A DNA stretch of 64,000 nt, from assembly GCA_963556145.1 (NCBI GenBank), contig OY744468.1, forward strand, positions 806,001 through 870,000, read 5' to 3'. Below the pieces are notes generated by a model, which saw nothing but the letters and a program-made list of their open reading frames with translations, was not told the origin of the DNA and made no database searches. This document shows, piece by piece, positions 19,772 to 52,193 of the stretch. The stretch's first letter is position 1. Each line of letters starts with the position of its first letter. The position numbers and the translations under genes are program-made. The DNA is from Hygrocybe punicea. Its lineage: Eukaryota > Basidiomycota > Agaricomycetes > Agaricales > Hygrophoraceae.

Positions 19772-20010
19772 TTATGAGTCCCTATAAGGGAATCGTTCTA
19801 TACGGTGGATTCTCAAACTCAGGGTCACACTCTAATTTGCCAAGCCATGGAAACAATTTTGTGAAACTGTGGGAACAATTTTGAAGCCCTGGGAATAATT
19901 ATGAAACCGTGTGACTGGGCAGAGCTGACTGTGAGAATTTGTTCTCCCAATCAGAAAGAACAATAATGCAGCTGGATCACAGGTTCCAAATTGGGAATAA
20001 GTAATACTAC
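19772..20010 (+). repeat. Helitron 5' subterminal conserved block
   Basis: About 240 bp downstream of the 5' terminus is shared with 18858-18610 (minus), 20754-20990 (plus), 54073-54230 (plus) and 55130-54890 (minus). Shared words include GGAACAATTTTG, GAAGCCCTGGGAATA and AAACCGTGTGACT, with the terminal TCCCTATAAGGGA hairpin. It probably contains the Rep recognition region (inference). Confidence 0.75.
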
Positions 20011-20318
20011 AGGTTAACATCAGTGGAAGGCAATGAAGATTGCTCTGTGACAGGTTCAACCAGTCTCCCAGCTGTATTCTGAGGAAGTGCCAGTGTAATT
20101 GACAACCATATATGAAATGTGTCTACAAATACATATATTGTGCAATAGGGATTAGAAGTCTTTGCAGGAGGAACATCGAACACTGGCAAGACAGGGTGGA
20201 CAGTGTTCAACAAGCTGTTTGACAAGTGTTCAAACTTCAATCTTAAGCATTACAATTGCATAAATAAAGGTACGTACAGATGATGAGGTGTAGCTATATT
20301 TACAATGTACATTGAGTT

Positions 20319-20753
20319 TAGTAATGATGCACTAGTCGAACACCTGTCGAACAGGCCGAACAGTGTTCGACAAGCCATGCTACAAGTGTCCAAGCTTCCA
20401 TTTGAAGCATTACAATTGTATAAATCATGATACGTACTCTATCTACATTATATGAGGTGTAGCAAGATTTACAATGCGCATTGAGTTTATTAATGATGCA
20501 CGAGTCAAACACCTGTCGAACATGCCGAACAGTGTTCGACAAGCCATGCTACAAGCGTCCAAGCTTCAATTTGAAGCATTACAATTGCATAAATAAAGTT
20601 ATGTACACTATATGAGGTGTGGCGAGATTTAAAATGCGCATTGAGTTTATTAATGATGCACTAGTTGAACACCTGTCAAACAGGCCAAACAGTGTTCGAC
20701 AAGCCATGCTACAAGTGTCCAAGCCTCCATTTGAAGCATTACAATTGCATAAA
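20319..20753. repeat. ~165-bp repeat array, three units
   Basis: Units near 20341, 20510 and 20670 (period 160-169 bp) share ACACCTGTCGAACAGGCCGAACAGTGTTCGACAAGCCATGCTACAAG in diverged form, together with GATTTACAATGCGCATTGAG. The unit core is the same palindrome found in the 240-bp families. Confidence 0.8.
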
Positions 20754-20990
20754 TTACAAGTCCCTATAAGGGAATCGTTCATACGGTGGATTTTTCAACT
20801 CAATTTGCCAAGCCGTGGGAACAATTTTTGCAAACTGTGGGAACAATTTTGAAGCCCTGGGAATAGTTTTGAAACCGTGTGACTGCTGACTTTGTAACTG
20901 TGAGAATTTGGTGTCCCAATAAGCAAGAACAATAAGGCAGCTTGATCACAGGTTCCCAGATCACAGTTGCCAATTTTGGAATAGGTAGTG
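20754..20990 (+). repeat. Second Helitron 5' terminus inside the giant element
   Basis: TTACAAGTCCCTATAAGGG begins at 20754 after an A, followed by the conserved ~240-bp subterminal block. It lies in the same orientation as the 19772 terminus. It may mark an inner Helitron sharing the 52193 end, or a partial duplication. Confidence 0.7.
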
Positions 20991-21299
20991 TTGCAACGTC
21001 TTTGCTTGACAGCTTTATTGACATAACAGACTGCATTGGTAGTGTAATGTGCACCTTTTGAAATATAGATGAGGTGAATGGGCTGAACAGTGTTCAGTGT
21101 ACAATGAGTCTCCTGGGTATATTTTCTGTGTGGTAGACACAGGATGAACCATATGTGAAATGTGTGTCTGCAGATACATATATTTTGCTGGATGCATTGG
21201 AATTATGTGTGTGCACCTTGAATCCGAGGCATTGATTTTGCCAAAACAATTGTAAGAACAATGTATTCGGTGTATCTGTGATATAGCTACAAGTACAAT

Positions 21300-21960
21300 G
21301 TGTATTAGAATTATTAATAATGCAAGCAGTGGGTACTTGTCGAACAGGCTGAACAGTGTTTGACAAGTGTTCGGCCAGTGTCCCAGTTTCAATCTGCAGC
21401 ATTGCCTTGTCACAAACAATTGTACGAACATTGTATTCAATGTATCTGTGATGTAGCTACAAGTACAATGAGTATTAGAATTACTAACAATTCAAGCAGT
21501 GGGTACTTGTCAAACAGGTCAAACACTGTTTGACAAGTGTTCGGCAGGTGTCCCAGCTTTGATCCGGGGCATTGTCCTCGCAGAAACAATTGTATAAGCA
21601 ACATACTGGATGTATCTGTGATGTAGCTACATGTACTATGTGCATTAGAATTATTAATAATGCAATAGAGAATACTTGTCGAACAGGCCGAACACTGTTC
21701 GACAAGTGTTTGGCAGCTGTCTCAGGATTACCCTGCAGCATTGCATTTGCAGAAACAATTGTACAAACAATATACTGGATGTATCTGTGATGTAGCAAGA
21801 TTTAATATGTGCATTGGAATTGTTGATAATGCAAACAGTGAATAATTGTGTGAACAGGCCAGTTCTAACACCGTTTGATAAGCATTCGACAGATGTCCCA
21901 GCATGAATCTGCAGCATTGCCCTTGCACAAACCATTGTATAAACAACATATCAAAATTCT
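21300..21960. repeat. 169-bp repeat array, four units
   Basis: Palindrome-bearing units start near 21338, 21507, 21676 and 21845, which is a regular 169-bp period. The inter-core text GATGTAGCTACA.GTACAATGTG, ATTAGAATTATTAATAATGCA and CAGCATTGCC.T.GCA.AAACAATTGTA recurs. Related decayed units lie inside nested element F. Confidence 0.85.
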
Positions 21961-22197
21961 TTGCGATGTATTAAAATTTAATGTGTGCTTTGAATATATT
22001 AATAATGCAAACAGGAAACTGATGAGGACTTTATATGATTAAATAATACTCAGATATCTAGTCACTTGTTGAAACCATTTGTGTTGTTATTTCACTTGTG
22101 AACGTATTGCAGAAAATAATATCATATAAAATTGGTATTCATGGATTATGATGTGTGATTGCAAACATGTGAGTGTACAACGTAATGATAATGGATG

Positions 22198-23373
22198 TTA
22201 ATCGGTTTCATTCATCCTGAGGTTTGTCAAACGTCTTTGGGTTTCTATGACATCTTCACCATCGTCTGTCAACTGGACATAACCCACATTACGTTTGATA
22301 TTAATCCTGGTCATTGTATTGAGAGCAGGATGAGGTGCCTTCATTCGACCTATCGTCGCATTCTGGATGTATATTAGTTATTATTCATTGAATTATTAGA
22401 TATGTCTGGTACCTCGGTAAACTTGCTGTTGACCAGCGCTAATGAGCACAGATTGAGTATCATCTTAAATTTGTCGTTCTTGACTGAAACCGCCGATACT
22501 GTCATCTGGACTTCTACAATGTCACCAATCCTGAAGCAAGTCGGACTGGCAGGTACAAAGCTGTCATCTATATCATTATCAATGGTCAAACTATTGTTGT
22601 GCTGAGCACTCACCAATGCTGGCCTCCATCTGATGTTAACTTGAAATAAAGGACCTCATTATCCGTCCCATGGAAGTATCGAGTATTGCTCATGGATGAC
22701 AGGATACCTTTGGGATCGACGTTGTGTTCGAATGGAATATGGTATGAAACATTGTCATGTCAGCGATCGGTGAAGTATCGGGTGCTAATAGATAATGCAG
22801 TGTATTCGATATAGGTGGATGACGTGAAGTCCAGCATTGCATGTTCTGGGAAAGTACGGGCCAGTTTCTGATGTAAGATGCGGAGGTTGTCAAGGTACGA
22901 TTCGAACAGTGGTATGTTGAGACCTGTGATAAGGATGCTCTGACAAAGAAATGGTGTTTGATGTTCGGGTGGTCTGGAAAATATATGTATATCAATTGTT
23001 TATGATTTATGTGATGGAACAATATACCTGCTGGTGATTGGTGGTAGGTCTTTGGCCACCAATATCACCTGTAAGCTTAAGACAAGTTCTTCATGCTCGG
23101 TGGTATCAGTACTTGGCCATGTAAGTTTCCAGCAATTTGGTAAGTCATTATGAACTACATTGATATTCGAAATCTGCAAATGTAATGAAACACAGCATAC
23201 ATCGTAAAATTTGAACATACATTTGTAGCATTGGCGAGTTGACTGTCATCATTGTCCATCTGTGTCGATATGAGATTACTTAAATGTTCAGCTGTAAAGT
23301 AGAGTTGAATGTATGAATGCCTTCAGTGGTATATGGACTGACATGCACTTTTGAAATCATAATAGGTGTCCAT
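22198..23373 (-). pseudogene. Cargo gene 1, second copy (unknown conserved protein)
   Basis: The start codon is at 23373 (MDTYYDFK) and the stop at 22198-22200 (LRMNETD). Exons read: AEHLSNLISTQMDNDDSQLA; then ISNINVVHNDLPNCWKLTWP; then a long exon with PFLCQSILITGLNIPLFESY, YLDNLRILHQKLARTFPEHA, TALSISTRYFTDR, TGA, HDNVSYHIPFEHNVDPKG; then DDSFVPASPTCFRIGDIVEV; and finally NIKRNVGYVQLTDDGEDVIE. Introns are ~45-55 bp with GT..AG. The only obvious lesion is the TGA, at the same codon as in the first copy, so it predates the duplication or is read through or spliced around. I do not recognise a function. It is transcribed away from gene 2, from which it is separated by the TIR transposon. Confidence 0.65.
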
Positions 23374-23994
23374 TTGCAAAGTGGAAGTGGGATTTATAAT
23401 TCAAATGCAAATTTCGACTGTTTTATCATGAATCATTTTTGATCGTCATCGAGATTATGGCAGTGCATCATGTTCATCCTCCATGAACTTGTGATGTCTG
23501 TATGGTGATTGCATTCTTGTGTTGCAGATCTTCTCAATAGATTCTTATTGTTTTTCTCCATTTTATAGGACAGGATATACATCAACAGCTATCGTAATGC
23601 TTGACCTCCTTATTGTACAGCATTAAAAGGAAACCCCTATCCATTCAGAATGATTTGTTTCCGATGCAACTGTCAGTATAGTTGATCCGATGTTTGTATT
23701 TGTTTGGAAATGAGTATATATGTCACATAAATTTCTATTTCCGATTTGGCTGTGTTATGATCTTATGATTGGTTCCATGTGGTGACAGCTGTTCTACATT
23801 CCAAAATCCTAATTAGACTTAGTGTTTGATTATTCTCCATACCAGTAATCCATATCCATGTTGTTGGATGATGCTGAGAGTAACAGCTGGTCAATCATTG
23901 GTTCTATATCATGGGGAATGTCCCTGATTTTTTTCATTTTTATGGCGCTATGATCCTAATAGTTCTCCTTCAAACCATCAGCAGATGTCGTTTT
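23374..23994. other. Gene 1/gene 2 spacer, left part
   Basis: Homologous to 7597-8367. No gene. It ends in TTTT (23991-23994), the left target copy of the TIR transposon. The spacer resumes at 38674 with TTTT. Confidence 0.65.
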
Positions 23995-25791
23995 CTATGG
24001 AAAGCAACAGTGATCAGCCCTTTTTTGTAACGCAATATTCAATGTCAGACGCGGCATGGCGTTAGGACCCAGGACACTCCACCAATGATAAGTGTTCCGC
24101 ATACAAGTAATATAGTAGTGTCTTCGTAGCGTTTAACAAGTGTCCTCATAGCATCAAGTGTCTTCATGTACAAGTATCTTCATAGCAATAAATTCTGATA
24201 TAAGACTGAGGCTTGATCAGATTACCACCAGACTATTGAGTAAAAGATATGTGGAATTGCTATTAGACAATCATGAATCTATACTTCGAGAGTCCTGGAA
24301 CTTAGTAGGAGGCCTCAAAACCCTTCGCCGGCCACACCAGCTTCAGTTTGTTGGAGGTGTCACATATGGGCTTGCACCTCAAGACGTTGCGGGTATTCGG
24401 GTGACTTTGTCGACGCCCATTCGGTTGGTGAGACGAACGACGTCGCCGAAGTCTAGTGACGTCGGGTCTGTTGTGTACAGAATCTATCAGATATTACTTA
24501 GATAAAGGAGAAACACTCACCTAGCAATAGCCGTAGTTCGCGCACTTTATTTGCACGTTTTGGGTCGCGGTCGCGCTTTAAACACTCACACTCCCAAACA
24601 ACAATCTAATGTCCCACCACTCTACCTCATCCACACTGGTGCTCGAGGCACAAAGCGACTCGCCGCTGCCGCTATCCACCCCAAACAATCCCACCCAAGC
24701 CATGGCCAACGCCAACGGCAATAACGAATCCGGCCTGTTATCTCCCCTCGCGCTCACCCTGCTATCGTTCGACTCGCCGGGGCCTCTATCTCCCCTCGCG
24801 CTCACCCTGCTATCGTTCGACTCGCCGGGGCCTCTATCTGCCCAGGCCCAACTTGCAGGCGTTGGCTCAAACGAAGACGGCCAACTTTCTCCACTCACAC
24901 TCAACCTTCGATCGTTCAACTCGTTGACGCTCCCACCCACCTCAGCGCTATGTCTGAGCATCGAAAACGACGGTCAATTATCCCCACTCGCCCTGGCCCT
25001 CCTATCGTTCGACTCTCCGGCACTTCTATCGGCCCCAGCCCAACTTTCGGGCATGGGGAATGAGAACGACGGATTGTCGCCCCTCCCTCTCTCCCTCCGA
25101 TCGTTTGACATCCAACGCAGCAGTGAAGGGTCTCCCGAAGCGTCGTTAGTTCCTGTGCAGGCCGAAGTTCGCAACGGCGGTGGAGAATCATTGTAAGCAA
25201 ATGGATAATGTGAATATGGCGCGTATCCGTGAGTTTCCCCCCCCCTTGCTTGCCCCTCCGTTTCTTGCATTGAAATTATCAGGGCTAACAGTTTTGCAGG
25301 TGATGTTGATCTGGGTGATGAAATTGCCATGATGGGAGTGGTTGTTAGAGGAGAATAATGAAAATTTTTGGATACTCCCGTTTGTGAAATGTTGAATTAG
25401 ATAAATGCTCTTGAAGATTCTGCTCTTGCGTAGATTCGCCCTGATGCTTTCACTTCATATGGCAAGCTCTGGTTTGGTCTTTGAGCAAAGCTGGTGATAG
25501 CGTCCGGCAGTGGGATAGCAAGTCGGTGATCTTTGCTTTATCGTGGAATCTTGACAACAATTGCAGGCACGTGTTGTGAAACACGCCGTCTTTTCTTCTC
25601 ACCCATGACCAAGGTGAACCAGAAAAACCAATACAAGCCATGCCGTCAGTCGTTTTTCATTCCATCTCTTTCTTTCTGGCTGACACACTCCAAGCTCCCG
25701 AGGACGAGCTACGCGAGCTCCTGTTGTTCTACTACAATCTCGGTCTAAACGACAAGAAGGTTGCGTCGTCATGTCTTTATCATTTCGATAC
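23995..25791 (+). repeat. Left long terminal inverted repeat
   Basis: Pairs with 36877-38673. It contains an open frame at 24609-25196, a 115-codon frame at 24158-24505 of unknown meaning, and the first ~50 codons of the transposase. Identity ends at 25791, inside codons for FDTE. The two arms differ by at least one base (a Leu versus a Pro codon in the 24609 frame), so they are real, separate sequences. Confidence 0.9.
24609..25196 (+). CDS. Repeat-containing Ser/Leu/Pro-rich protein encoded in left TIR
   Basis: 195-codon open frame starting MSHHSTSSTLVLEAQSDS. It contains imperfect repeats of the form LSPLALTLLSFDSPGP, two of them in perfect tandem (about 24742-24837), with variants LSPLTLNLRSF, LSPLALALLSFDSPA and LSPLPLSLRSFD. 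It is GC-rich. A possible donor lies after the stop region (GTGAGT near 25229) with an acceptor near 25299, so it could be the first exon of a longer gene. No known family. Because it lies in the TIR, it is present at both ends in divergent orientation. Confidence 0.45.
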   Translation: MSHHSTSSTLVLEAQSDSPLPLSTPNNPTQAMANANGNNESGLLSPLALTLLSFDSPGPLSPLALTLLSFDSPGPLSAQAQLAGVGSNEDGQLSPLTLNLRSFNSLTLPPTSALCLSIENDGQLSPLALALLSFDSPALLSAPAQLSGMGNENDGLSPLPLSLRSFDIQRSSEGSPEASLVPVQAEVRNGGGESL

Positions 25792-27372
25792 GGAGCAATA
25801 TGGGCTCAGGTTGAGTACCTCCTATTACGCTTTCTTCGTAATACAGATTACAACCTCAACAATCAACAGTGCATCAACGGTCAAGCGTCTCAGGCGGAAG
25901 TGGGATTTAAAGAGCACCCGTCAACAGAACCATACATTTGATTCAATCTCAGGAGCAATAGAGGAGATACGCAGGCGGTTCCCGAAGCGTGGTAGCGAAA
26001 ACATCCGCAAGAACCTCCGACAAGAGTATGGCATGCGTGTTTCACGGTAATGTACCAGTTTTAAACATCCTGCTATATATTGATTTTTTATGCCACAGGG
26101 CATTGATATCAAATTTTCTCATTTCAACTGAACGACATGCTGTTGAAGGACGCCGCCATAACCGCTTCAAGCGAAAACGCTTCTGGTGTGCCGGAGTGAA
26201 TGATATCTGGTGTCAAGACCAACACGATAAATGGTTACGTTTTGGACTTTATTTCCATAACAGTGTTGACCCATTCATGTCGTACAACAACTGGTTGAAA
26301 GTCTGGTGGACCAACAAAAATCCGAAGCTGATCACCAGCTTCTACATCGAAGCTGCTCGGAAAACAGGGGGTAACGTGTCCATGATTCCTTGTTTGCAAA
26401 ACTTCATCTCCTGATGTTATCAAGGAGTTCCGCTAGTAACTCAAAGCGATCCTGGTTCAGAAAACTTTGGTGTCGCCAATTCACAAACTCTGATACGCCA
26501 CCGGCTTGATCCCACTCTCAGCGACACCCTACAACACCGATGGATGAGGGAAAAGCATAATGTTAAGTCCGAGGCAAATTGGTCCGTCTTTCGTCGGGAT
26601 TTTACGCCCGGCTTCGAGAATATCCTTGATCATGGTGTGAATAGTGGGTGGTATGACGCTAGTGATCCACTCGAAAAGTGAGTGTGTCCTATTTTGAGGT
26701 TTCTTAGCATTAACATTTTGGTCAGTTTCGTCTTTAGGTGGCTCGCGATACCATGGATTCAAGCTGAACTCGACAGATGGGTTATACAGCGGAACCAAAC
26801 AGCGCCACGCCGAGACAAGAAAAAGATCCTTCCTCATGGAATACCAGAGCTCATTCGCCTGCATCCCGAACAATATGGTGCATTGGACTTCAAGGTATGA
26901 ATGTAGTCGTATAGCGTTCAATGCCGTCTCATACCCATTCTAGGTGGTTGTTCCGGCATCATTGCTAGATGAAGCCGAAAGGCTCTACGCTCCTCCTGAA
27001 GACCCGGTCTTCCAACTCGTGCCTCCACCATTCGAGGAGCGTGTGCACGGCCTCTATGCCGGCATTGGGAGGCCACCCGTCTCATCTAGTTCATTCTGGG
27101 TCGTCTATCTCCAACTATTGCAGGCTTTTCGTGCACTGGGCAATGCCGAACTTACACCCATATTAGAATCTCATCAGGAGACGCAAAGGATAGCAAATGA
27201 TGGTGTCCCCCTTCTTTCCGGACTTCGGGAATTACGAAATGGCGACAATGTAGTTGGCCCCTACGGAGAACCGGGATTCCCTAATCATACACGAGCGGAA
27301 TCTGGTGTTTCCGAATCTGTTCTGGAATATGCTGACTTTACAGATCAGGAAAGTAGTTCTGACGAAGAGTAA
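25640..27372 (+). CDS. Integrase-type (rve-like) DDE transposase
   Basis: Likely cut-and-paste enzyme of the TIR element. Six exons, introns at 25810-25869, 26047-26098, 26371-26424, 26678-26737 and 26895-26943, give one uninterrupted frame of 485 residues. The N-terminal helical part includes DELRELLLFYYNLGLNDKKV, FDTEQYGLSASTVKRLRRKW and RRRFPKRGSENIRK (HTH-like). The catalytic core includes HNRFKRKRFWCAGVNDIW then QDQHDKWLRFGLYFHN (first Asp), NWLKVWWTNKNPKL, and VPLVTQSDPGSENFGVANSQ (second Asp), with a candidate Glu in KHNVKSEANWS. The C-terminal part has PWIQAELDRW and KKILPHGIPELIRLHP. The family is frequent in Agaricomycetes and annotated as integrase core domain proteins. The start is uncertain: an upstream ATG at 25603 with an extra intron is also possible. 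No stops or frameshifts seen. Confidence 0.8.
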
Positions 27373-27506
27373 CTATCATTATTGTCCATGTATTGTCCAA
27401 GAAATTTTCTATAACTATGGGTATCGGTTGGATGAAAAAAATTGTAAGTAAAGAGAAGAGATCGAAAAAATAATCTATGCAGAACCGGAGAACATTATGG
27501 CGTTGA

Positions 27507-29970
27507 TCAGACCCTCTTTTTCTTCGACTTCCTTCCAGCTGGCCCTCCACCCTCAGTTATCTCCCCTTCCTCGGCTAAGAACAGGCTGCCGCACTCCTGG
27601 CCTAAAACCTCCAACGCTTGCTCTTGCTGTAGCCTTTCCAACATCAATCCAGGTTTCAAGTGAGCCTTCAGTGCTGGCTTGATAGGAGATAGATCATAGA
27701 ATTCACAGAACTTGTTGCAAATATGATCATCTCCGAAGTAGGTGAAGGAGGCCGCCAAATTCCCATCAGCGAACACACGCTCAGGTCCGAGGTCACTTTT
27801 GATACAAAGTAGGCATCAGAATACATAAAGAACAAGTAAAACTTACGGCGAAGTGATTATTTGTGGATCAGAGAGTAAAGTGAGACCTCCTGTGAGAAGT
27901 TGAATGTCAGCATGATTCTTGGCGACAAAACAATATTGTATACCTTGTTGATCAGAAACAAAGACATGATGCTGAGTCTCGAGCATTTGGACGTGCTGAG
28001 CAAATGACAAGAATAGACCAACGTATTCCCTCTTTGAGTCCAGCTGCGGAAGAGGAGCTGCCGAAGTGTTGTTGATATACTTGAGGAAATCTCCGTCTGA
28101 TCCATCAACGACTTCCTCCAATAAATAAGCATCTCGTTTATTGTTACTAGCCACCGCCAATGCTACGTTGACATAACGCATCTTCGGTACAGGAAAGGGT
28201 GGCTTTCCTCGAGTCCAGTTTTCCTTTTCCATAAACTCGTATACGAGGCGCATCAGAGCTGAAGCCCAGCGTGAACAGTTGATTTCGGTGGTCAGTAATT
28301 CAGCTTGTTTAGGACCTTCAAATATAATTCGAGAATCCGACGTTCGGCTGTTACAAAATGCCTGCTTGACACAAACGGCAAGAGATTCCGAGCCTGGAAA
28401 GACCGGCTTGTTGGTATGACCAAAGTACGCCACTTTGCAAGCGCCAGAAATGGGGTCGTTGGTATTGAACGTGAGGATGATGGGGAAACCTTTGTCCACG
28501 AGGAGAACAGGGGCCTTCGGCTTTGCAATAAGGTGATCAATGGAAGGGAACTCCGTTGGGTAAACCATGCATTCCGTGATTTTGAGGTCAACTTCGAAAC
28601 AGATGAGTTGTCAGGGCCATTAGTGCATGTTGATCCACTTACATATCCCTTGCATAGCTTTCCGACCTGGTGCTTTTTGTGCTTGCAACGCATGCCTCAG
28701 TCGAGAAGTACTGGTGGTACCTGTGCTGGTGACTGATTGTAATGCCAGTGAACGGGTTCGAGGGACATCGGAAGAGTTGTCATCGGCTGATAATTCGGCA
28801 TGCTGTCGTTTGGGCCTGGGTGGAGCTGCAATTTCTTTCACTTCTGCGACAAGCTGAATGACAGTCAATCAACCAGACATTCTTCGGTGCGTTTGCATAC
28901 CTGTAATGGCACAGAGTCGTCTCGGATACTGTTGGTATGTGCAATTTCATATAGTTCATGTGATATTGCTAGTATCAACTCGAGAACCTTTCCACCAGCT
29001 TCAAAACGTCTTTTACCTCGAACCATTTTGAAATATCGTTGCGAAACAGCATCGACATCGAGATTCCCTAACCCCTTTGGTAAGAGCTCTTCCCATTGTG
29101 CGGATCGGAGTTCGACGTCATCAGGATTGAGCCCCATGCCTTTTGTCCACTTAATGTACTTGTGTGCTACAGCCGTCACTCCAGTCAACTTGAGATCATT
29201 CACGCCGCTATGAACAGGTATGGATCCAACGGTCTCGCAAATATCCTGTGAACGCCACGTTGAATTGGCTCTTGTGGAAATGTCATGGCTTCACTCACCG
29301 CGACCCATACGGCTGTTTTTCGACCTGGAAGCAGCACCTTCACCCAAAACTTGATAACGATGACCTCAGCGACAGGCCCAACTGCAAATGCCTGGGCACT
29401 GAACCGATTCTTTAACTCCACGTAACGCTGATGGGCTTCTTGATAGCCGTTGACAGTGGGTAGGTTCCGGAATTCCGCAGGGAATGTTAGTTGCGGGGCC
29501 TGATTATAGAGGGCTGGTGTTATGATCACCGGCCCCGGGGCTGGAGGGGGAGGCAACGGTCGGAAACCATCATGTCGAGCTAGATATCCAAGTGCCTGCA
29601 CCGGATCTGTCCGCTCTGTAACATTCGGCATGTGAGTCAGCATATCCATAGGGTAATATTCTCATACTCACCACCGCGCTGTGCAACAGCAACTTGTCTC
29701 TGGATAGATTTAACACTTTCCGCAGCTGTGTCTCATATGGGTTAGCAAAACGGAGGTAAAATGATGAAAGTGGTTACCATCAACACGGCGAGTGGTTTTT
29801 TTGTTGAGGTAGTACTGATGGCAGTCAGAGCACACTTTTCGCCCAGCCCGAGAGCGATCTTGGTTCAACAGATAAAATATCCCCGCAGGCGGCTTGATCT
29901 GCTTCTTGCATGGACCACCGCAGATGACAATTTCATTTTCAGATGTGAATTCGGCGGCGTACTGCGGCAT
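27507..29970 (-). CDS. Alpha-kinase (atypical protein kinase) carried by the TIR transposon
   Basis: About seven exons and about 700 residues, apparently intact. Start at 29970 (MPQYAAEFTSENEIVICGG). The N-terminus has a zinc-binding-like CGGPCKK...CSDCHQYYLNK. A linker follows with PVQALGYLARHDGFRPLPPP. The C-terminal half is an alpha-kinase domain: KQAELLTTEINCSRWASALM, YLLEEVVDGSDGDFLKYINN, HHVFVSDQQGIQYCF, GGLTLLSDPQIITSP, and after a last intron FADGNLAASFTYFGDDHICN then KFCEFYDL (the glycine-rich and H..CN..C zinc motifs typical of MHCK/eEF2-kinase-like enzymes). It ends in a basic tail KSKKKRV. Alpha-kinases are strongly expanded in many mushroom genomes. Here the gene is convergent with the transposase and shares no promoter with it. 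Substrate unknown. Confidence 0.8.
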
Positions 29971-30429
29971 GGATTGAAATATAAAAAGGAATGTTGGGGA
30001 GCAAAGGAGTGTTGTGTTGGGAGTGACGAGTATTCCGAAGGCAGGGACACTAATGTGACTGAATAAAATTTTATTGGCCGTAAATTGTGTGAAACGACGG
30101 AAGTGTAACCTCAGTCCGAATTGGGATTTCCATGCCGATTGGTGTTCGACTGCTGAACTCTGTGTATTGTTATCGTACTTTAAAGGAAGCAAAGTTTACA
30201 TATATATCATGATCTCGAGACTGACCAGCCCCAAAACGTCCGCACAGGATCAATCAGCTTGCCTAGCCAATATGTTGCGAAAGTGTAATACATTTACTTG
30301 CCGACACGTTGAATACATTTTGAATTGAGTAGCATTTGAAGGTATGGTACACAATACATATGATAAACGGCATTCCACTACTTATTCTTGCTAAAGGGAA
30401 GTCATTTTCGGTGGAAGCTGATCCGGCGC

Positions 30430-30984: not shown

Positions 30985-31304
30985 ACGTGTCAGAACATGG
31001 CAATCCCCAGCAAGTTCCCTAAGGATCCAGACAACAGCCTTTGGCCTTTGGCCACCTTGACGTTGATAAGCTCGTCACTGGGTGACGGACGTACCTGTCA
31101 ATACATGGGTACCCCTCGGTATCGAAATGATAAAGACATGACGACGCAACCTTCTTGTCGTTTAGACCGAGATTGTAGTAGAACAACAGGAGCTCGCGTA
31201 GCTCGTCCTCGGGAGCTTGGAGTGTGTCAGCCAGAAAGAAAGAGATGGAATGAAAAACGACTGACGGCATGGCTTGTATTGGTTTTTCTGGTTCACCTTG
31301 GTCA

Positions 31305-40829: not shown

Positions 40830-41047
40830 TTTGTCGTCTATCTCGTCATGAACCTAGTGTGCCATGCAGCGTGGCTTATTGCCCATTTCCTTTATGTTGC
40901 CCTCAATTTGTAATGTACCTTCCATTGAAATCAAAACATTTTGTGCCTCTCTGAGATGAGATCTGATTGGTGACATTTAAAGTTGACTAATGTACAAGTG
41001 AAGTTCAGAAATATGAGTATGCATTTGTAATATCTACAAGCCATTTA

Positions 41048-42665
41048 TAAAATACCACTGAAAATGTGTCCGCAAAAGATCCAAGATTTCGCGCCTTGCT
41101 TCATGTTGGACCACAAGCTGCAGGTGTGATACCGTTCGATCTCATTCATGAAGTAATTGACTTTGTTGGTGTTTGAATCAACAATGAGCGAAATGTCCAT
41201 GCGACAAAATACACTCATTGAAGGTTTCCCACCAATCAACGTCGACTCTATGGCATACAGCCCCTCATAGGTGTCTCGTACAAAGCCGAAGAATTGCTGT
41301 CTTTCTTGATCTCGAATTGCAATGGAGCCATGATCCGGATTGCAAACATCGGTCTTCATGAGCATTTCCTGTGCTTGGAACGATCTTGGAAAATGCCAAA
41401 AACTCGTGAACATGTAATGTGAGATGGAGGGCATTTGCCTACCTCAATTCCTCTAAAGTATAGAAGGTCGTCACAATATCCCACCTCCACGATTTGCTCT
41501 CTTTGTTGTAATGCATATGAACTGTGTAAATGTCCCTTCCACCTAACAAAAACACTCGCCATTCTCTGATCTTGGCCAGCAGCTCAACATAGGTTTGACT
41601 GAACCAACGTGAACCGGGGACCTCGCAGTTCAGGTGCATATAGTCCAAATTCCGCCTTGGATCGCCTGGGAACAACACATGGTGACCGGTGTCACTATGC
41701 ATTCACTTCAAAACAATGTTCGGTGGAAATGGTTCACTGTCCTTCAGCAGCCTCGATTGTGGTCGCATCATGTGTGTCGTTGACAATGCAACATGGAGCA
41801 GGTTTTGCATCTGCATCCATTTCGAATGCACGGTGTTCATTTGTTTTGGTGGTGGCCACACCTGAACTGTTCGACACAGCTTGTCAATTCCGGCCAAGAA
41901 TGTCGACACGTTTTCGACCGTTATACCATATTGATTACCACTATAGATGATATTCGAATTAACTGAATTAAAAAAAAGGAAAATTGACAAATATGTTTGA
42001 CATGCTCACATATAGGACATTCCCATGTCCACACCACCAAATATGCAATCGGTGGATTTGAACTTATTCCATGTTATATTCGACCCCAGTGAGTTGAGCA
42101 TGGCATGGGCGAACTCATTCCTGCATGCAAACAAAATATCACGTCTTGTGTGCCTTGATATTGTGAATATAACCATCGAGGTGCGAGACGGTTTCGTATT
42201 CGTCTTGTGAAACCGTAACGTTGACGAATGCAAGATCATTGGTTGCGGCGGCTTTACTTGTAATACGGGTGGTGGGATCAAGAACAAAGATGATGTGGAA
42301 AACGGGATCGTTCCTGACAGACTGTGTAATCGTGCTCATGGGAGCATCCTCCATCTCTACATCGGAATTTGGTTCTGGTGTATTGGATGCTGTTGATGGC
42401 AACAACGCCAGTTCCTCTTCAGTAGCATTTCGAATACCCATGGAATTGTCTGCACCCTTCCGTCCAATACAGCTGGATAGAGGACAGGTACCGGATGTAA
42501 TGCAATTTGGATGCTTGCTTGCGGATCCACAATGGCGCTGACAGGAACTTCCTTCCTTTTTCCAGAGGATGGTTTGTGTCTGCATTGAGATGCAGTTTCA
42601 TCCTGGACAGATGTGGCAGCACACGTCATAGCCAACTTCCTTGCGAGATTTGGGCAGATTGAAAA
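41048..42665 (-). pseudogene. Cargo gene 3, second copy (ATP-grasp-like features)
   Basis: Minus-strand segments in order: DETASQCRHKPSSGKRKEVP; NATEEELALLPSTASNTPEP then NSDVEMEDAPMSTITQ; FHIIFVLDPTTRITSKAAAT; VSQDEYETVSHLDGYIHNIK; a divergent exon at 41703-41990 with LCRTVQVWPPPKQMNTVHSK and PFPPNIVLK; SDTGHHVLFPGDPRRNLDYM; WRVFLLGGRDIYTVHMHYNK; GLYAIESTLIGGKPSMSVFC then RMDISLIVDSNTNKVNYFMN EIER. The C-terminus shifts frame relative to the first copy after NMKQG. ATP-grasp-like layout only at motif level. Otherwise unassigned. Confidence 0.55.
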
Positions 42666-42939
42666 TCTGAAAGATCAGATTATGTTAGTTCGTCAATTCA
42701 ATGGGGTCCGAAATGGTACTGTAATATACCGGTATGTATTCTGTAACTCGGGATGTGTTGTGAGATGATGAGTGTCAAGGAGAAGAAGAGTTAATCAATT
42801 TTGGACAATCCTTTTGACTATCAATGATATCGGATTCGTGTCAGGTGACAACGGCGACAATGATGCTCCCCCGGTTGGATCGGCAAGGGTTTGGTTGTGC
42901 ACCCATATTTGTCTTTAGAATGAATAACAATGTAACGAC

Positions 42940-43335
42940 CTGCTGAACACGTGTCGAACACTGTTCGGCAAGTGTTCGATTAGTCATATGCATATTGATG
43001 TGTTAATTAATGTCTGTGTGGCTTGTCGAACACTTGTCGAACAGTGTTTGGCCTGTTCGACACGTGTTCGACAAGTCATTGCTACATTAATATATATTCC
43101 ACTTGATTTATTAATGTAGCAATGACTTGTCGAACACTTGTCAAACAGTGTTCAGCCTGTTCGACAAGTGTTCGACAAGCCGTATCGACGTTAATATATA
43201 TTCCACTTAATTTATTAATGTGGAAACGACTTGTTGAACACTTGTCGAACAGTGTTCGGCCTGTTCGACAAGTGTTCGACAAGTGTTCGACAATTCATAT
43301 CTATGCTAATAATTATACCATTATATATATTAGCA
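42940..43335. repeat. Palindromic core repeat cluster
   Basis: Five or more close-packed copies of CTTGTCGAACA / TGTTCGACAAG around GTGTTCGGCCTGTTCG, separated by ATATATTCCACTTgATTTATTAATGT-like text. Units repeat about every 115-120 bp. It lies between cargo genes 3 and 4, which corresponds to the 13.1-13.8 kb array in the first module copy. Confidence 0.8.
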
Positions 43336-44175
43336 TCAAGTATGTTCGGCCTCTTCGCTGTAGAGGGTCCTCGACCCTCTGAGGCCGTAACATCGATATC
43401 TAGCGAATCCGCTCGAACCCGACGTCTCTAGCAGTCTACGCTCGAACCCGACGTAACCCGACGCAACCCGATGCATACCGACTAGCACGGCCGCTCACGT
43501 ACCTGGTCGGTCTATCTCATAAACTCACGGAACTTCAAATATCGAAGATAGATCTCATCGGACTGGGATCCCGACATCGGACTTGCCTTATTCACGCCTA
43601 GCGTCTCCCTTATGGGGATATAGTAAAGTATATTGCATCTTTTACGGTTTTTCATATCTTCCACCCATTTTCCCTGTCATCGTCGCCTCACAACGCTCTT
43701 CCTACTTCCCCATTTTTATTCTCCTTTGTCTCCTCTCATCGGCCGAGGACTCTCGTCCGAATCTAGGTACACAAATTTGTAGTATAAAAACGGTGCCCAA
43801 GCGCTGTCTCAAAATAAGAAACCAGTTCCCCCATTTCCTCTCTCTGAGAATTAAGTCTCTCAGTAAATTCCATCGCACACATTGCTCGTCGGATTCCTCG
43901 ACGCCCTCCCCGTCGTTCTACCGTCTTAATCTCTACGTTTCTCGTCACCCGACACCCGACCCGCCGTACCCGACATCGTCGGCTTCGTCGGCTTCGTCGG
44001 CTTCGATCGGTCTCGATAGATCTCAATAGTTTACTCGGCGGCTTCTTACTTTTTTAAATCCTATTATCTTACTGAAGCTTGTTAGACTATTCCTAGTCAC
44101 TTTCATGCTGACCCCCACAGGCTTAGGATTACTATTCCGCAGCCACCCCGACCTCGCCTTTACACCGACACCGTC
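43336..44175 (+). promoter_or_regulatory. GC-rich upstream region of cargo gene 4, or solo LTR
   Basis: GC- and CpG-rich compared with neighbours. It has a perfect hairpin GAGGGTC-CTC-GACCCTC near 43368-43384, a TATAAAAA box near 43785, pyrimidine-rich stretches, and repeats of CTCGAACCCGACG and GTCGGCTTC. It could be the promoter and 5' UTR of gene 4, with introns ending at CCCCACAG near 44120. It could instead be an LTR beginning TGTAGAGGGTCC at about 43363. I could not find a matching LTR end or target duplication. Confidence 0.3.
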
Positions 44176-45645
44176 ATGGATGAAATTTGGGCAGAGGTTT
44201 TGGTCGCATAACGGGCCAATGAGGTTACCCGTGACTGGCGAAGCAAGATCTTCGACGATTGGCTCCTCAAAGAGTTTTACATTGGCAAGCATTCTCCATC
44301 GGCATTAATTCAACATGGCGCTGTTAGCACCGAGACCATGCCAGAGGACCTCAGTGAGTATATATACGCATTGGCAGACAAATGGATTATGACATCTGGC
44401 ATCATAGATTGGGCGAAATACGACGAATCTGTGCCAGCATGGCACAGCGGAACCTCTGCAAATTGGTCGTTTGGTGGGCTTCCAGATGCCACAAAGCTCG
44501 AAATCATCGGTCATGTTATTGCTTGGTGTAAAGGACATAGTGTCCTCATCGATGCCAATGTGGCAGAGGACAATGAAGGTGTGATCTAGAATTACATGTG
44601 TGATTGTGCTAATAATATAATACATTTGCAGAAGAGCTGGTTCCCCAGGGCAAGGGCAAGGGCAAAGCCAAGTCAAATTGGTCAAAAAACAGAAGACATT
44701 TTCCGCTGGTTTGTACAAATTTTCAACCATAGCGGTGTATAGATGTACTGAATATTCCGAGAAGGACAAAAAGAAGCCCAAGCCCAAGCCCAAGTCCAGT
44801 AAGTACTTTCATTGTCTGTGATCATCACACACAGTAACTCCTCATCATCACAGAATGCACCATGAAGTCCAAACCCGATGACGACGCTGAGGGTGAGTTA
44901 TTAAATTCTAAATATCAAGATTGTAACGCATATTATTCATTCATGCATAGACGATATCAAGATGGAGGAGGACGTAGCCCTGGTAAAGAAGAAATGATCA
45001 AAGGCTCAAATTCGTACGTTACTCACTTTGCTCTGAATAATGCACTGACATCTCGCAGTCGCTGTCGAAATTGCGCCGTCGTGCGGATCCAAGAAATCGG
45101 AATCCGAAAAATTGACAGTGGAAGTTAAACCACCCGTCTCCTCCGAGTCAGATGATGTGCCACTGGAATCTGCAAAGTTGGGCTTGTTAGGACCAGAATG
45201 GGAGGGGTTGTTGCATTCTGATGACGATGTAATCATGTACAACAATGATGGACCTCCCTAACCCATACAGGAGTCTCTCAGCGGCGATCACGAGGACGGC
45301 GAGACAGCAAAGAGGAGGAAGTTGGATCTGGCATCGGAGCAAGCGGGTATTATCCCAGAAAGGCTCCAGCCAGTGAAGCCTCTGAAGAAGTCTCCGACTC
45401 CGGGTATGCACATCACACTCTATATAGATTTCACATCTGATCTTGTCAATATCATAGGATTCCGTCCCAATACGCGTGCATCATCACGCCATTAGTCATC
45501 GACCCCTGCGGAGCCAGGCGGTTTATCAATGGATGTAGATTGGAGCAATATCGTTCCTCCCGATATCCTAGTTTCAACTACGCCGAGCCAAATGAGGCCT
45601 TCATCTTCCAAGGCGTCGACATCCAAACTGAACCCTGGCCCTTGA
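44176..45645 (+). pseudogene. Cargo gene 4, second copy
   Basis: Start at 44176 (MDEIWAEVLVA), a TAA after ten further codons, then RANEVTRDWRSKIFDDWLLK, EFYIGKHSPSALIQHGAVST, EDLSEYIYALADKWIMTSGI and HVIAWCKGHSVLIDANVAED. After introns come Lys-rich exons (GKGKGKAKS, KKPKPKPKS), an acidic part (ESAKLGLLGPEWEGLLHSDD) and a last exon ending SKASTSKLNPGP at 45645. The first exon looks globular and helical, and the tail looks disordered and charged. The early TAA breaks it unless translation starts downstream. Function unknown. The first module copy keeps only the 3' exons. Confidence 0.5.
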
Positions 45646-46107
45646 TTTCAGGTGCTGTAAGTCCTCTTTTTGAGGAGTATTAATTATATTTGACTAAAGA
45701 CACTTTATCTCAGTCGTTGATTTCTGGTAATCTGTTGATAATCTGTGCCCTCGACGTCCTCCTCTACCGCCATTCTTTACATCTGTACAATATCTGTACA
45801 TTTCTTTTTTTGCTCAATTGAAAATGGCTTGTGTTACTTTCCTATGACCATAACAATTGAGCGAGATAATAAGCATACACAGATACCACATAAGACATCG
45901 ATCTTGGTGACTGAAAATCTGTTTGTCTAAATTAAATGTATTAATTTCAGTTCACGTTTGTCATAGTACAGCCACCACAAGTAACATAAGAAGGACAACC
46001 TTGGATTACTATGACTCGAGCTAATGAACATTCAAATTGAATATATGTAATAAACCAGAACTGCCAACTTTATGGACCAATTAAATAGGGGATACACATA
46101 GGAGACA
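45646..46107. other. Spacer, no gene seen
   Basis: AT-rich, and nothing recognisable. It joins the cargo module to the Helitron protein gene. Confidence 0.5.
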
Positions 46108-46310
46108 GATGAGGAATTTTTGCCATCAAATAATATTGAGATATCCACTCAAATATTGAAATTATTTTTGTTGCTATCATAAGTCCAAAAATGTCGAAAA
46201 CATAACGTTATCCACTTTTTACAATGTTTTCGGACTTATCATAACAACAAGAATAATTTTAATATTTGAGTGGATATCTCAATATTATTTGATGGTAAAA
46301 ATTCCTCATC
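46108..46310. repeat. Foldback (MITE-like) element with ~88-bp arms
   Basis: The left arm from GATGAGGAATTTTTGCCATC and the right arm ending in the inverted GATGGTAAAAATTCCTCATC form a nearly complete hairpin around a ~30-base centre. The arms share ATATTGAGATATCCACTCAA. The whole is about 200 bp. No clear target duplication. Confidence 0.75.
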
Positions 46311-46600
46311 CATCCCCTGTGACAACTGTAACAAATCCCCCTCGTATGGTGGCAAGCATAACCATCACTCCAAGAAAAGCTATGACTATTCAGTACCGGA
46401 ATATTAGGTTACAAAAACATTCAATTGAATAAAAACATTATAAAGCTTCAGGCACACCTTATGATGTTTTTGGAAGAGCTTACAAATAAGATAATGTCAT
46501 ATGATCAAACCAATTGTGTTAATTGTTGTTCATGATCCAAACCACTTAACTAGTTAAATAGATACATGGGCAGTGCTTCCTCTTACTATCACCAATCCAC

Positions 46601-49600
46601 ATGAATCTCCACGATACCATCCATATTTGCATTGCGGTTTTGACTTATCTACATTTCCTTGCAAACGCAACCATATTTCCACAACTATGCCAAGACCAAC
46701 TTATATATATCTCTCTTGAACCAAATTCCGTTCCTTTGATATCGACCTTGACCCAAGAATTGGGTGTTTTTCAAAGAAAACTCATAGAACATGAGTTTGC
46801 CCCAGATCAGGGCGATGCAACAATACTGATGCACATAAATGCAACACAATGTGTAAAGTTCAATGAAATAACAAATAATACTTTGACACTCAATGCATTA
46901 TTCGCTTGGACTACATTTAAAGATAGCGCATTCAATATGCAATTACATTCTATTCAATATGCGAGAACATATTTCTTACCTTCTAAATATCTCTTTGCTT
47001 TGTATTGTCTTCTCAAACCTATCACTGTCCAATGTCATTGTAAAATGATCAATGCATTGCTCATGTGATCGCTATTGAGACGACATGATTTCAGATCATA
47101 TTTATTTCATTGCATTACTAGTTCTCTATCACATGCAACGTTGCTGTGGACCACACTATGTTTCATAATACGGCATAGCCGTTCAAACATAATTGTGTTC
47201 AATTTGAATTTATTCAGAAACTTGTTTAAATCTTTATATATAAATTCCATTCATAGATATGACTACATTGGTGGTGGTAAACGAATACCAACATTCAAGT
47301 TTAGCTTTCTTCAATCTTTCATGCTACCGTCTAATAATATCAACCATGATTCTGACATATTATTTGAATATGTGGGGCATATTGATGAACAAACAGCCAA
47401 CACTTTATATGAAGATAGAAAAAAATATGTATGTGTTAAAATGCCTTTACATGAACTTCTGCCAAAGTTGACGGTGAAGGATATTGGTGAAATAACAACA
47501 ATACATGGTATATATTTGTCAAAGACATTACGAAGATTACATGGACAAGATCTATCTGTGGCATTAATGAGGCATAATTATTCAGCTTGTGATACTCATG
47601 TTTCTATTTTTCATGTGCATGATATTAAATCAAATAAAGATAAGTGTAAAGAGTGGTACAAAAGACAACAAATGACAGAAACATATGAGTGCGGAACAGA
47701 AGAAACTCAGACTAAAATGAAAGAAGAATTGGAGAAGTCAGATGAGCAATCATTTCCTCCTCCTCCACCATCTATTGAATTGAAGGAAACCATAATCAGC
47801 AACTGGTGCAGAGATACATCACCTGAATGTTTTCAAGAAAGTGGGTGTGCCGTGTGCGGTCAATTGGTTGCATTGAAGAACATGTCTTTATTGTCAAAAA
47901 CAAAGGTTAATCTGAAAATATTAACTAGAGACAATATGGGAATCACAAGATGTGAACGATATCATTGTTCTGATCCAATAGAGGATATCAAAGGTCCAGT
48001 GCTAGATAACACATGTAAATGGATATGCAAACCATGTGTGCTCAGTCTGAATAAAGGCCAAACTCCCAAATATGCTTTGGCAAATGGACTTTGGATGGGA
48101 AGAATTCCTGCACAACTTCAAAATCTAACATTTGCTGAACAACTTTTGATTGCCTGTGTTCGTCACAACAAATGTATTGTTCGTGTCTCATCTGGGATGC
48201 ATAAAATGAAAGCAAATGCCATCATGTTTCAAAATCCAACACCAAAGATATATCAACGGTTGCCTCCAACAATTAAAGAACTTGATGAAGTGCTAGCCTT
48301 CATTTTCACTGGTCCTGCCAGACCAACTCCAGAAGACATGGAGCGAACACCTTTATTGGTTCGCCGAATGCGAGTTTCTGCAGCTTTAGAATGGCTGAAA
48401 TTGAATCACATGGATTACTATGATTTAGATATCTCCTATGAAAATCTAGCACAATATCCAGATCACGGAATTCCTGTTGTGGTTGCATATCGACCAGCAG
48501 ACACAAATAAGGAACCGGAAGCCACTAGTGCATTTGACAATGAAGAGGAAGATGGTGCGGAAGATGGGCCTTGTCCCTTTGTTGTTAGTGGGGTAACTGG
48601 TGAAAATCTAGATATTACAAGTCCAAAGGCATTAATAGCTAGAGCAACCAAGCACTTGATAGATGACCATGGTGGTGTTCTTGCCATAAGCCATGCTAGA
48701 AATCCAGAATTGTTCTTTAATAATCCTCAGTTATATCCTATGATGTTCCCCTGCCTATTTCCATATGGCTTGGGTGGTATTAGCAGCATTGACAAGGATG
48801 TTTTAAGCATCAGTGATATGATGCACAAAAGACATCTCCTGATGTACCATGACAAAAGATTTCAAACCGATCCCTATTTTCCATTGATTGCATTCAATCA
48901 AGAACAAATCAAGGACAGTACAACCAGAGGATATTTGTTGACTAATAAACATAATTTCAACGATATTCCAGATCGCCTGATGAATATCAATACAGCTGTT
49001 TTGGATGACCTCTCTAAAAGATTATCTAGAGGTGATAGAGTCAAACCAGATACATCAGAAGAGAAAGCATGCTATAAACTCATTTCTGATCAAATGCTAA
49101 TAGCTGAAAGAACTTTGAAAAGGTCAGAATGGCTTGATGATTGTATTGATGGTACCCCAGATATAGGACCGTTGATACCTATAGAACCACCTGTAGTACA
49201 ATCAGCAAAATTATGGAGAGCTGCAGTCCTTGCAAAGAAAAAGGAAATCATCGATGACAGAAATAAAAATTTACCAACAAACACAGCAACTATAAATAAA
49301 TTGGGAAATTTTCAATATAATGATGTCAAGATAGTGGACGCAGCATACATCAACCATATGTTTGTTCCTACAAATAGAGCTGATCGTCATCTTATTGATG
49401 TAACTATCAATGATTACAAGTTGAACACTGACCAACAGAGAGCATTTCATATCATTGCCAATCACTCTACCTTGATTAACAGTCCTGACAAGCTATGCAT
49501 GTATCTTGGTGGGATGGCAGGCACAGGAAAATCACAAGTCATCAAAGCATTGACTAGTTTCTTTGGTAAACACAATGAAAATCATCGGTTTGTGGTTCTT

Positions 49601-52124
49601 GCACCAACTGGTAGTGCTGCTGCCATTGTAAATGGATCCACATATCACTCCATTCTTGGAATTAATCAGGGAGCATCATCTCACTCCCTTGCACAAGTCC
49701 GTGCCAATCTTGATGGTGTGGATTAGGTGTTAATGTTATCTTGCAGAGATATGTATAAAATCAGTGCTTAATGTGCAAAAGCACATGGTGTTTATGATGA
49801 ACCCTTTGGTGGCATTAATATGATATTTGCAGGAGATTTTGGCCAACTTTCACCAGCTATGAGTGGTGCTCCTTTGTACTCTGGAACCGTTGGTGTCCAA
49901 ATCAATTCCAGTCAAACTATACCAAATCAGGAAGCTGCTATAGGCAAAGCTCTTTGGCATCAGATTACAATGGTTGTTATATTACGTGAAAATATGAGAC
50001 AAACCAATGAGTCAAAAGATGATGTCCAACTGAGACAGGTGTTGGAAAACATGAGATACAAAGCATGTACTGAAGAAGATATTGCATTCTTTCGCACTCG
50101 CATCACAGGAAAAGGTCCAAATGATCCGAAATTAGCCCAAAAGAAATTCAGGAATGTATCAGTTGTAACTGCATTGAATGCACAAAAAGACAAAATCAAT
50201 GAACTTGGTATTCAATGTTTTGCTGCTGAAAATAAAAGACCATTAACATCATTTTATTCTATAGATAGATAGAATGATACTTCTAGTTCCAATAGCAAAA
50301 GAAAATCTCATCACATGTTAACAATTTTGGATCCTATTCAACACACAAAGATATTGAAACCTTCACTCCAAAAACTACTTTGGAGCCAACCACATGCATC
50401 ATCCTCTGATCATATACCAGGAAGATTGGAGTTATGTATAGGCATGCCAGTGATACTGAGAAACAATGATGCGACGGAGTGCTGCATTACCAAAGGAGCA
50501 GAGGGCATGGTTGTGGGTTGGCAGAGTGCAATAGGTCCAGAACAACAAACTGTGCTGGACACTTTATTTGTCAGATTATTGAATCCTCCAAAAGAAATTA
50601 ACATAGAAGGACTTCCTGAAAATGTGGTGCTGATTACAAAACATGTCACCTCCACCACGTGCTCATTACCCAATGATGATGTGATATCTTTGTCAAGAGA
50701 ACAAGTGTTGGTACTCCCTAATTTTGCCATGACCGATTATGCATGTCAAGGGCGTACCCATTCTAACAATGTAGTTGATCTCAGTAGTTGTAGAAACCAC
50801 CAATCCTACTATACTTGCTTATCAAGAAGTGCATCTGCAGCAGGAACTATCATCATGCAAGGCTTTGATCCTAAAGTAATTACAGGTGGTGCTTCTGGAT
50901 ATCTCAGGCAAGAATTCAGAGAATTAGAACTGCTTGATGAGATTACCAAACTGAAATATCAAGGACTCTTACCAGACCATGTCAAGGGAGATCAGCGAAA
51001 TTCTATCATTGATCAATTTAGAAAATGGAAAGAAAAGTCATATATTCCAAAAAAAATTTATCATGCTATTGCATGGAAAGCCATGGAGCAACTAAATCAA
51101 TACACAACACAGCCCTCTCCATGGCAATTAATTAAACCTATGAACAAACATCAAAAGGCAGATTTCAGAAACCTCAACTTTGTTCCTGCAAAAGGAACTG
51201 TTCCAATCACTGTTACTCATAAAAATTCCACAGCCAATGTATTGCAAAATAAAAAACGAAAATTACAACAAGTTGTAAGTTCATCTTCCATTGTGAAAAA
51301 AAGACGAAAAACAAGTACTATTGAATTAAATGAACCAAAAGGGTTTATATGGGATGCGCGAGATTGGAGCTGTGCTTATGATTCACTCTTTACAATATTA
51401 CTAGCAATATGGAATGAAGATCCATCAAGTTGGAAAAAAAGATTCAATAGCATCAATGACATATTAAAGATTTTGAGCTTAGGATTCAAACGATCCAAGA
51501 ATCACACAACAGATTTAGAAACAGTTAGAAATACAATCAGACATTTATTGCATCAAGATAAACCCGAAATATTTCCTTATGGTCAAGTTGGCATTGCCAT
51601 AAGTGATTTGGCCCATTATATAATGAAAGCAAATGAACCAATGACTTCAACTTGTCTTAAATGTATGAATTGTGAAAACATAACCATTCTGGAAAATGAT
51701 AGATGTGATGCCATCTTTCATTGTTCATATTCATTTTCCGGAACAATCTCAGCATATCTTGCTCAAATCATAGTCAATAGACAACAGCACAAATGTCAGT
51801 TGTGTTGGGGAGAGATTACTAAATTTATTGCATTTAACAAAATTCCACCTCTAATCATGTTTACAGTTGACTCTATTGAGAATTTAATAGTTAGTCAAGT
51901 CAATTGATGACATATCCACTGCTTTCACATTGAGAGGAATTGTGTACTATGGTGATGCACATTTTACTGCCTGCATATTCATCAACGGTATGGTATGGTT
52001 TCATGATGGTATATCAACCAGATCAATTTGTATTAATGAAGGTGATATAGATGACTTTTCAAATATTAATTTATTGTCATGTAGTGGTAATAATGCTGTA
52101 CTGTTTATATATGCTCAATCTTAA
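46601..52124 (+). pseudogene. Helitron protein gene, copy B (Rep domain deleted)
   Basis: A first frame, 46601-47068 (MNLHDTIHICIAVLTYLHFL), is followed in phase by a stop and then RRHDFRSYLFHC. The region to 49726 contains HRYDYIGGGKRIPTF, a cysteine-rich part (CAVCGQ, CERYHCSDP, CKWICKPC, DUF6570-like) and Helitron_like_N text MMFPCLFPYGLGG. At 49092, YKLISD jumps straight to MLIAERT, deleting about 1.7 kb that in copy C encodes the HUH/Y2 Rep nuclease. The PIF1 helicase follows with Walker A GGMAGTGKSQ (~49510), but a 15-bp deletion at 49725 removes Walker B IFIDE and creates a stop. The USP-like tail (Cys codon 51371, His codon 51960) has a 2-base frameshift at 51906 shared with copy C. 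B cannot be autonomous. Confidence 0.9.
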
Positions 52125-52148
52125 TATTTGTTCTCTTGCTACAAAGAG

Positions 52149-52193
52149 GGACGAGTAACATGTCATGCAAAGCAATGGCCCACACCCCACTAG
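52149..52193 (+). other. Helitron 3' terminus: hairpin plus CTAG
   Basis: GGACGAGTAAC, then a short hairpin (TCATGC-AAA-GCAATGGC, one pair weaker than in element G), then CCACACCCCACTAG ending at 52193, then T. A subterminal hairpin about 10-14 bases before CTRR is the defining 3' feature of Helitrons. Confidence 0.85.

Follow-up and report, generated by a model that had tools for sequence, protein, structure and literature searches.

How did more than 30 kb of DNA with Helitron ends come to lie within a Helitron gene, and are the other genes that it carries a chance load or a regular part of the element? These questions are raised by a stretch of 64,000 nucleotides of the basidiomycete Hygrocybe punicea (GenBank assembly GCA_963556145.1, contig OY744468.1, C34:806001-870000), referred to below as the window, whose own numbering is used unless a contig or copy is named. 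An earlier note, made from the sequence alone, had described positions 19772-52193 as a giant cargo-bearing Helitron. Helitrons transpose by a rolling-circle mechanism through a circular intermediate, and their hallmark is a RepHel protein that combines a Helitron_like_N (Rep) domain with a PIF1 helicase. They start with TC, end with CTRR and then T, have a hairpin shortly before the 3' end, and insert before a T, typically at A|T, without target duplication. In this study, we compared the interval with the whole 92.2-Mb genome in 42 contigs, scoring the best 40 candidates for each similarity query. The results make it probable that the interval belongs to a high-copy family of giant Helitrons, in which it is a defective composite, and that it was placed at this site by replication that started at the outer of its two 5' ends.

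The insertion and its empty site

The features that delimit the insertion are listed here, E1 being the family copy at C1:1243915-1263358.

19772..52193, plus strand: whole Helitron insertion unit, with ends found genome-wide in the family and joined flanks free of gaps at the junction
52172..52193, plus strand: 3' terminus GCAATGGCCCACACCCCACTAG
18866..19771, minus strand: one part of the target RepHel gene, 90% identical to E1 14109-13195
52194..53690, minus strand: other part of the target RepHel gene, 75-86% identical to E1 13187-11784
17075..18858, minus strand: short Helitron F, with the same ends as the big unit, nested in the same target gene (from joined flanks)

The unit starts with TTATGAGTCCC and ends with CACCCCACTAG, and a genome-wide search for other copies with the same two ends found many: 215 exact 5' ends and 313 exact 3' ends, with 0 matches to either reversed control pattern. 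When 150 nt from each flank are joined at 19771|52194, their alignment to the RepHel gene of E1 is free of gaps at the junction and around it, and so is that to the window element's own RepHel gene; the sole inner gaps of these alignments lie about 140 nt away, close to one end. There is no clear target duplication. The interval is one insertion with Helitron ends, which splits a minus-strand RepHel gene. The termini, the exact empty site and the lack of a target duplication proposed in the earlier note are all borne out, and so is the nested element F, whose joined flanks are identical to E1 at each base displayed. Its view of a single unit rather than independent insertions holds in part: the outermost ends do bound one insertion, but a second 5' end (20754) and a terminal inverted repeat (TIR) transposon are nested inside.

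The assembled length is 32,422 bp. Without the N gap, and with the identical stretches beside it counted once (5,758 bp less), 26,664 bp remain, in agreement with the 26.7 kb put forward before, and the Helitron part comes to about 17.7 kb once the secondary transposon at 23995-38673 is subtracted. The unit is large, as had been claimed, but its excess length is mainly that of this later TIR transposon with its assembly gap, plus the second 5' end.

The unit has a further RepHel copy of this family on either side (window 1-3533 and 56503-63127), which makes the window a nest of Helitrons in and beside Helitrons. An older family member, X, occupies 5900-16000, with its 3' end at about 15961; its genes G1-G3, described below, are collinear with those of E1 at 71-76%, and its G3 has stops. 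A transfer RNA scan returned 0 genes.

The family and its gene module

All 30 of the 3'-end loci fetched (from 41 listed matches, with 40 scored of 392 candidates) have CTAG followed by T, and their 30 flanks are all different. At the 5' end, 12 loci were examined, eight of them fetched and four picked from pattern matches. The preceding base is a purine in every case (A in nine, G in three, including the window copy), and each element starts with TTA(C/T)GAG, the pattern by which the four were picked, and not with TC, a variant 5' end. The hallmarks of a 3' CTRR with T and of insertion before T without target duplication are thus found in the family. At C40:4305771-4305970 (L025), opposite-strand 3' ends face each other less than 30 bp apart, with repeated CACCCCACTAG letters between them.

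Each 5' end was paired with the nearest same-strand 3' end on contigs C1-C3, for which the lists of exact ends are complete. A 3' end lies within 60 kb in 54 of 63 cases (median 20.7 kb; some 5' ends share one 3' end), and the spans cluster at 19-20 kb: 11 fall between 19.1 and 19.9 kb, and 10 are shorter than 7 kb. The basic unit of the family is about 19.4 kb, represented by E1, which holds an uninterrupted frame of 2,423 amino acids with DUF6570, Helitron_like_N and PIF1 domains (Pfam). Its HLHMLLW (residue 799) and YITDY (residue 989) motifs are presumably catalytic. Residues 480-1400 matched 564 proteins, with a relative from Piloderma croceum among the 120 listed, so this is a RepHel protein of a known kind. 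The combination of Rep and PIF1 is present in E1 and not in the window copy, where two features record the loss:

47069..52121, plus strand: defective RepHel gene, DUF6570 and PIF1 helicase parts present, Rep catalytic part gone (Pfam)
49088..49091, plus strand: deletion junction; E1 14387-16569 (residues 676-1403, with HLHMLLW and YITDY) lost here, retained in a sister copy on contig C39

By tblastn, the window gene covers residues 1-675, 1404-2346 and 2350-2423 of the E1 protein only, with in-frame stops at 49726-49771 and 50272 and a frame change near 51900. Owing to the missing Rep core, the stops and the frame change, the window copy would be unable to supply Rep. The Helitron's own protein gene is therefore present, as had been claimed, but broken. 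Among 1,956 aligned columns, 19 of the 23 substitutions private to the window copy are C>T or G>A, 14 at CpG, as would be expected from the decay of methylated DNA.

It is noteworthy that the family carries further genes upstream of RepHel. In comparisons by tblastx, G1 (minus), G2 (plus) and G3 (minus) are multi-exon genes with the same order and strand in E1, E2, the window element and X, and a fourth gene, G4 (plus), occurs in E1 and E2. In the window they are represented as follows.

22405..23189, minus strand: G1, conserved multi-exon gene, function not assigned (tblastx comparison of E1 with E2, X and the window element; pN/pS)
39757..40843, plus strand: G2, conserved multi-exon gene, beta type (tblastx; pN/pS; beta pattern at C34:846142, window 40142)
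41005..42657, minus strand: G3 pseudogene, beta type, possibly ATP-grasp; intact in E2 (543 amino acids)
44161..44529, plus strand: 3' part of G4, 96% identical to E2 9632-10000; the G4 5' part is not collinear with E2

For G1-G3, the proportion of differences at silent sites (pS) is 0.65-0.83, near saturation, against 0.09-0.22 at nonsynonymous sites (pN), which argues for strong purifying selection. These values come from three copy pairs for G3 and from two blocks each of G1 and G2 between E1 and E2, one G1 block starting some codons ahead of the likely exon. G4 has diverged by only 10%, with a ratio of nonsynonymous to synonymous rates (dN/dS) of about 0.2.

How widely the module travels was seen with type-specific patterns of 36 bases, matched genome-wide with up to three mismatches. 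There are two types, alpha and beta, and the alpha counts are lower bounds. The G2 marker occurs at no fewer than 182 loci (at least 103 alpha and 79 beta) and the G3 marker at no fewer than 124 alpha and 51 beta loci, with 0 matches in reversed controls of either. Among the paired copies on C1-C3, G2 is marked in 26 of 28 with spans of 14-25 kb, always 3.5-9 kb from the 5' end, in 13 of 16 at 25-42 kb and in none of 10 under 7 kb; nine 5' ends without a 3' end in range have the marker in five cases and lack it in four.

The several non-transposase genes between the ends are what a one-off gene-capturing Helitron loaded with host genes would also show. However, the further copies compared have G1-G3 in collinear arrangement and the G2 marker recurs at all those loci, which rules out a unique capture, and an alpha-kinase-like frame in the interval belongs to the secondary TIR transposon, which rules it out as Helitron cargo. 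We regard such a capture as highly improbable. Of the earlier description as cargo-bearing, the presence of non-transposase genes stands, but not their capture by this copy. We are fairly confident that G1-G3, and probably G4, form a standing, selected module that travels with the family and was not captured at the window locus. Helitrons are usually described as accidental carriers of gene fragments. With its 19.4-kb unit, its wide distribution and its purifying selection, this Helitron appears to maintain a constant set of genes.

What the module does can be addressed in part. Five relatives of G1 were found, all in Infundibulicybe gibba, and Pfam searches of G1 and G2 gave nothing relevant. 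G3 has two relatives (47% over 53% and 28% over 78% of its length), with Boletus reticuloceps among the sources, and the second of them (P0002) has a weak Pfam match to R2K_3, an ATP-grasp family, at E 0.0081, below the cut-off. G3 itself has motifs that we take to be ATP-grasp-like, and its assignment to that family is a guess from sequence. The best match of G3 among PDB sequences was no better than E 0.15, and the two stretches in IMG/VR that fit its pattern do not encode a G3 relative.

The module comes in two versions. The left body is of alpha type in E1 and E4 and of beta type in E2 and the window element, and the two types are about 72% identical (about 28% apart), whereas the RepHel genes of E1 and the window element are 94-95% identical. 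In E3, beta sequence extends to about G2 and is followed by alpha sequence (99%). The 60 listed G2 sites on C1-C3 comprise 27 alpha-alpha, 15 beta-beta, nine beta-alpha and no alpha-beta combinations of G2 with G3, and nine without a listed G3 nearby. The G2-G3 spacing is 1497-1503 in 25 of the 27 alpha-alpha and 1589-1603 in 13 of the 15 beta-beta cases; in eight of the nine beta-alpha cases it is longer and uniform (1889-1890), as would be expected for a single recombinant that multiplied. The two versions thus appear to recombine among copies.

The composite 5' end and the secondary transposon

Within the insertion, four features bear on its formation.

19772..20753, plus strand: outer 5' end of 982 bp, from another family copy of E2 type and including some of its minisatellite array; 87.6% identical to E2 300-1292
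20754..52193, plus strand: inner, otherwise complete family element with the 5' end TTACAAGTCCC (from collinearity with E3)
23995..38673, no strand: secondary TIR transposon, 14,679 bp assembled, about 8.9 kb collapsed
31305..31404, no strand: 100-N gap between identical 5,658-bp stretches (25647-31304 and 31405-37062)

The outer piece matches the first 992 bp of E2, which begins at 301 in the sequence compared, and the inner element is 88-97% collinear with E3 from the start of the latter to about window 41056. Minisatellite-like arrays occur in the Helitron at 20176-20754 and 43019-43355, with units of about 160 bp and about 104 bp, and they differ between copies.

The junction of the two 5' ends (20604-20903) was found whole once elsewhere, at C39:2759727-2760027 with 98% identity (40 scored of 502 candidates). 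The C39 sister was followed over 23 kb without N and has one inner 5' end and one 3' end 21.7 kb further on. Apart from some insertions of its own, it is collinear with the window element throughout, at 95-98% (89-90% across the minisatellites), and its RepHel gene spans the Rep core that is missing in the window, yet is also interrupted. Its 3' flank differs from that of the window copy and, by eye, is not the continuation of E2 either. At least part of the outer piece, if not the whole composite, has therefore been present at two sites, and the composite has probably moved as a unit, as the double 5' end recurs with collinearity throughout and with other flanks.

These observations suggest the following sequence of events. 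One family copy would have landed within another, about 980 bp from the latter's 5' end. From the outer 5' end (19772), rolling-circle replication may then have proceeded to the nearest 3' end in its path, which belongs to the inner copy (52193), and have stopped there, so that both parts were put into the RepHel gene of a third copy, before T and without target duplication. Later, the Rep catalytic core would have been deleted, decay, largely C to T, would have set in, and the TIR transposon would have arrived. The main rival concerns the first step: the composite would have formed in place, through one insertion nested in another at this site and subsequent recombination of their homologous 3' halves that deleted one 3' end. 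Identical outer flanks and the same empty site would result, and the mosaic family attests that its copies do recombine. However, C39 has the same 5'-5' junction within an unbroken copy whose 3' flank is unrelated, so that the fused structure has moved at least once even under this rival, which we consider unlikely. On C1, same-strand 5' ends lie 1.4 kb apart (C1:2766604 and C1:2767994), with two 3' ends about 30 kb downstream, a possible composite or nested pair.

The secondary transposon has inverted repeats (23995-25795 and 36873-38673) that are 99.9% identical over about 1.8 kb. TTTT flanks it on both sides (23991-23994 and 38674-38677) and occurs once in E3, whose continuous sequence the transposon breaks, with 29 more bases lost about 50 bp away. 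It is absent from the C39 sister, E2 and E3. Its left insertion junction was found in the window only (40 scored of 106 candidates), with the transposon end elsewhere at 97-100%. It contains an integrase-like frame (rva_4, 1.8e-6 on joined frames) and the alpha-kinase-like frame (Alpha_kinase, 9.5e-8, Pfam); Pfam searches of ten further frames gave just two weak matches, below the cut-off. More copies lie at C34:658546-681570, C36:3632120-3643996, C8:1076356-1090753 and C40:4827638-4841939, spanning about 9-23 kb if their ends pair.

Because the 5,658-bp duplication flanks the N gap, it is most simply, though not provenly, an unmerged contig overlap. One pair of outer ends at C40 spans about 8.9 kb, matching the length of the collapsed transposon; that copy also has one extra inverted-repeat end beyond this span, so partial duplications exist, which speaks against a pure assembly overlap. 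In the genome data used, moreover, N can also stand for masked sequence. A gap between identical flanks, in a transposon with several near-identical copies, could also mark a misjoin in which halves of different Helitron copies were scaffolded together. However, the target gene is continuous across the gap, the Helitron body is continuous on either side of the transposon, and both sides are collinear with one continuous sister copy, that on C39. A misjoin is therefore the least probable of the accounts considered, and extremely so.

Several observations weigh against the interpretation of the interval as a composite placed by a start at its outer end and carrying a working module. Use of the outer end is seen at the window locus only; in the C39 sister, similarity gives out 471 bp upstream of the inner 5' end, and the 6 kb beyond this point contain no outer one. 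The N gap lies within the insertion unit. Folding gave a short terminal stem in F and L012 and no clear stem in the window copy, and in none of the three was it better than in shuffled sequences. Finally, G3 is intact in E2 only among the four modelled copies; it has one stop in E1 and three in X and is pseudogenic in the window element, so that individual copies often carry a dead module. We nevertheless hold the composite origin to be the best explanation. A wider picture is more tentative, and we would not yet lean on it: a modular giant Helitron may benefit from keeping G1-G3, one of which may encode an ATP-grasp ligase, so that the accessory genes would serve the element, with two ancient versions swapped by recombination and composites able to start at a foreign 5' end.

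Comparison with known Helitrons

Helentron or Helitron2 elements are large, also occur in fungi, and have extra domains. In contrast, no endonuclease domain is among the Pfam matches of the E1 protein, and the CTAG 3' end and the purine|T insertion fit ordinary Helitrons better.

The closest description in the literature consulted is that of HELPO1 in Pleurotus ostreatus, a basidiomycete Helitron family of variable length with RepHel and one to four 'cap' genes, which are described as having no copies outside Helitrons (Castanera et al. 2014, PMC4289320). In the part of that account used here, the elements measure 1.5-13.7 kb, the cap genes lie downstream of RepHel, and 37 Helitrons (HELPO1 and HELPO2) are validated in strain PC15. 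Both families have RepHel, and extra genes in their long copies. Set against HELPO1 as described there, the present family differs in its unit of about 19.4 kb, its hundreds of ends, the position of G1-G3 upstream of RepHel, and purifying selection. Helitrons in general, as summarized in the portion of a 2019 account that we drew on (PMC6431247), are of rolling-circle type, have RepHel proteins that can exceed 2,000 amino acids, and may carry extra genes, all of which is shared by the present family with its 2,423-residue protein. A limited search, within the parts of the literature covered, revealed no fungal Helitron family of such size and gene content, and the present family surpasses the fungal Helitrons of PMC4289320 and PMC6431247, as far as these sources were used, in both size and richness in genes. 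The window element itself is less exceptional as a single copy than had been claimed; its insertion is real and well delimited.

With two versions of the module and a recombinant of them at hand, its exchange among Helitron copies can be tested from sequence alone. The prevailing model of Helitron capture, according to the same portion of PMC6431247, is read-through past the 3' end. In contrast, the composite 5' end, with its sister elsewhere in the genome, would be a natural record of Helitron growth on the 5' side.

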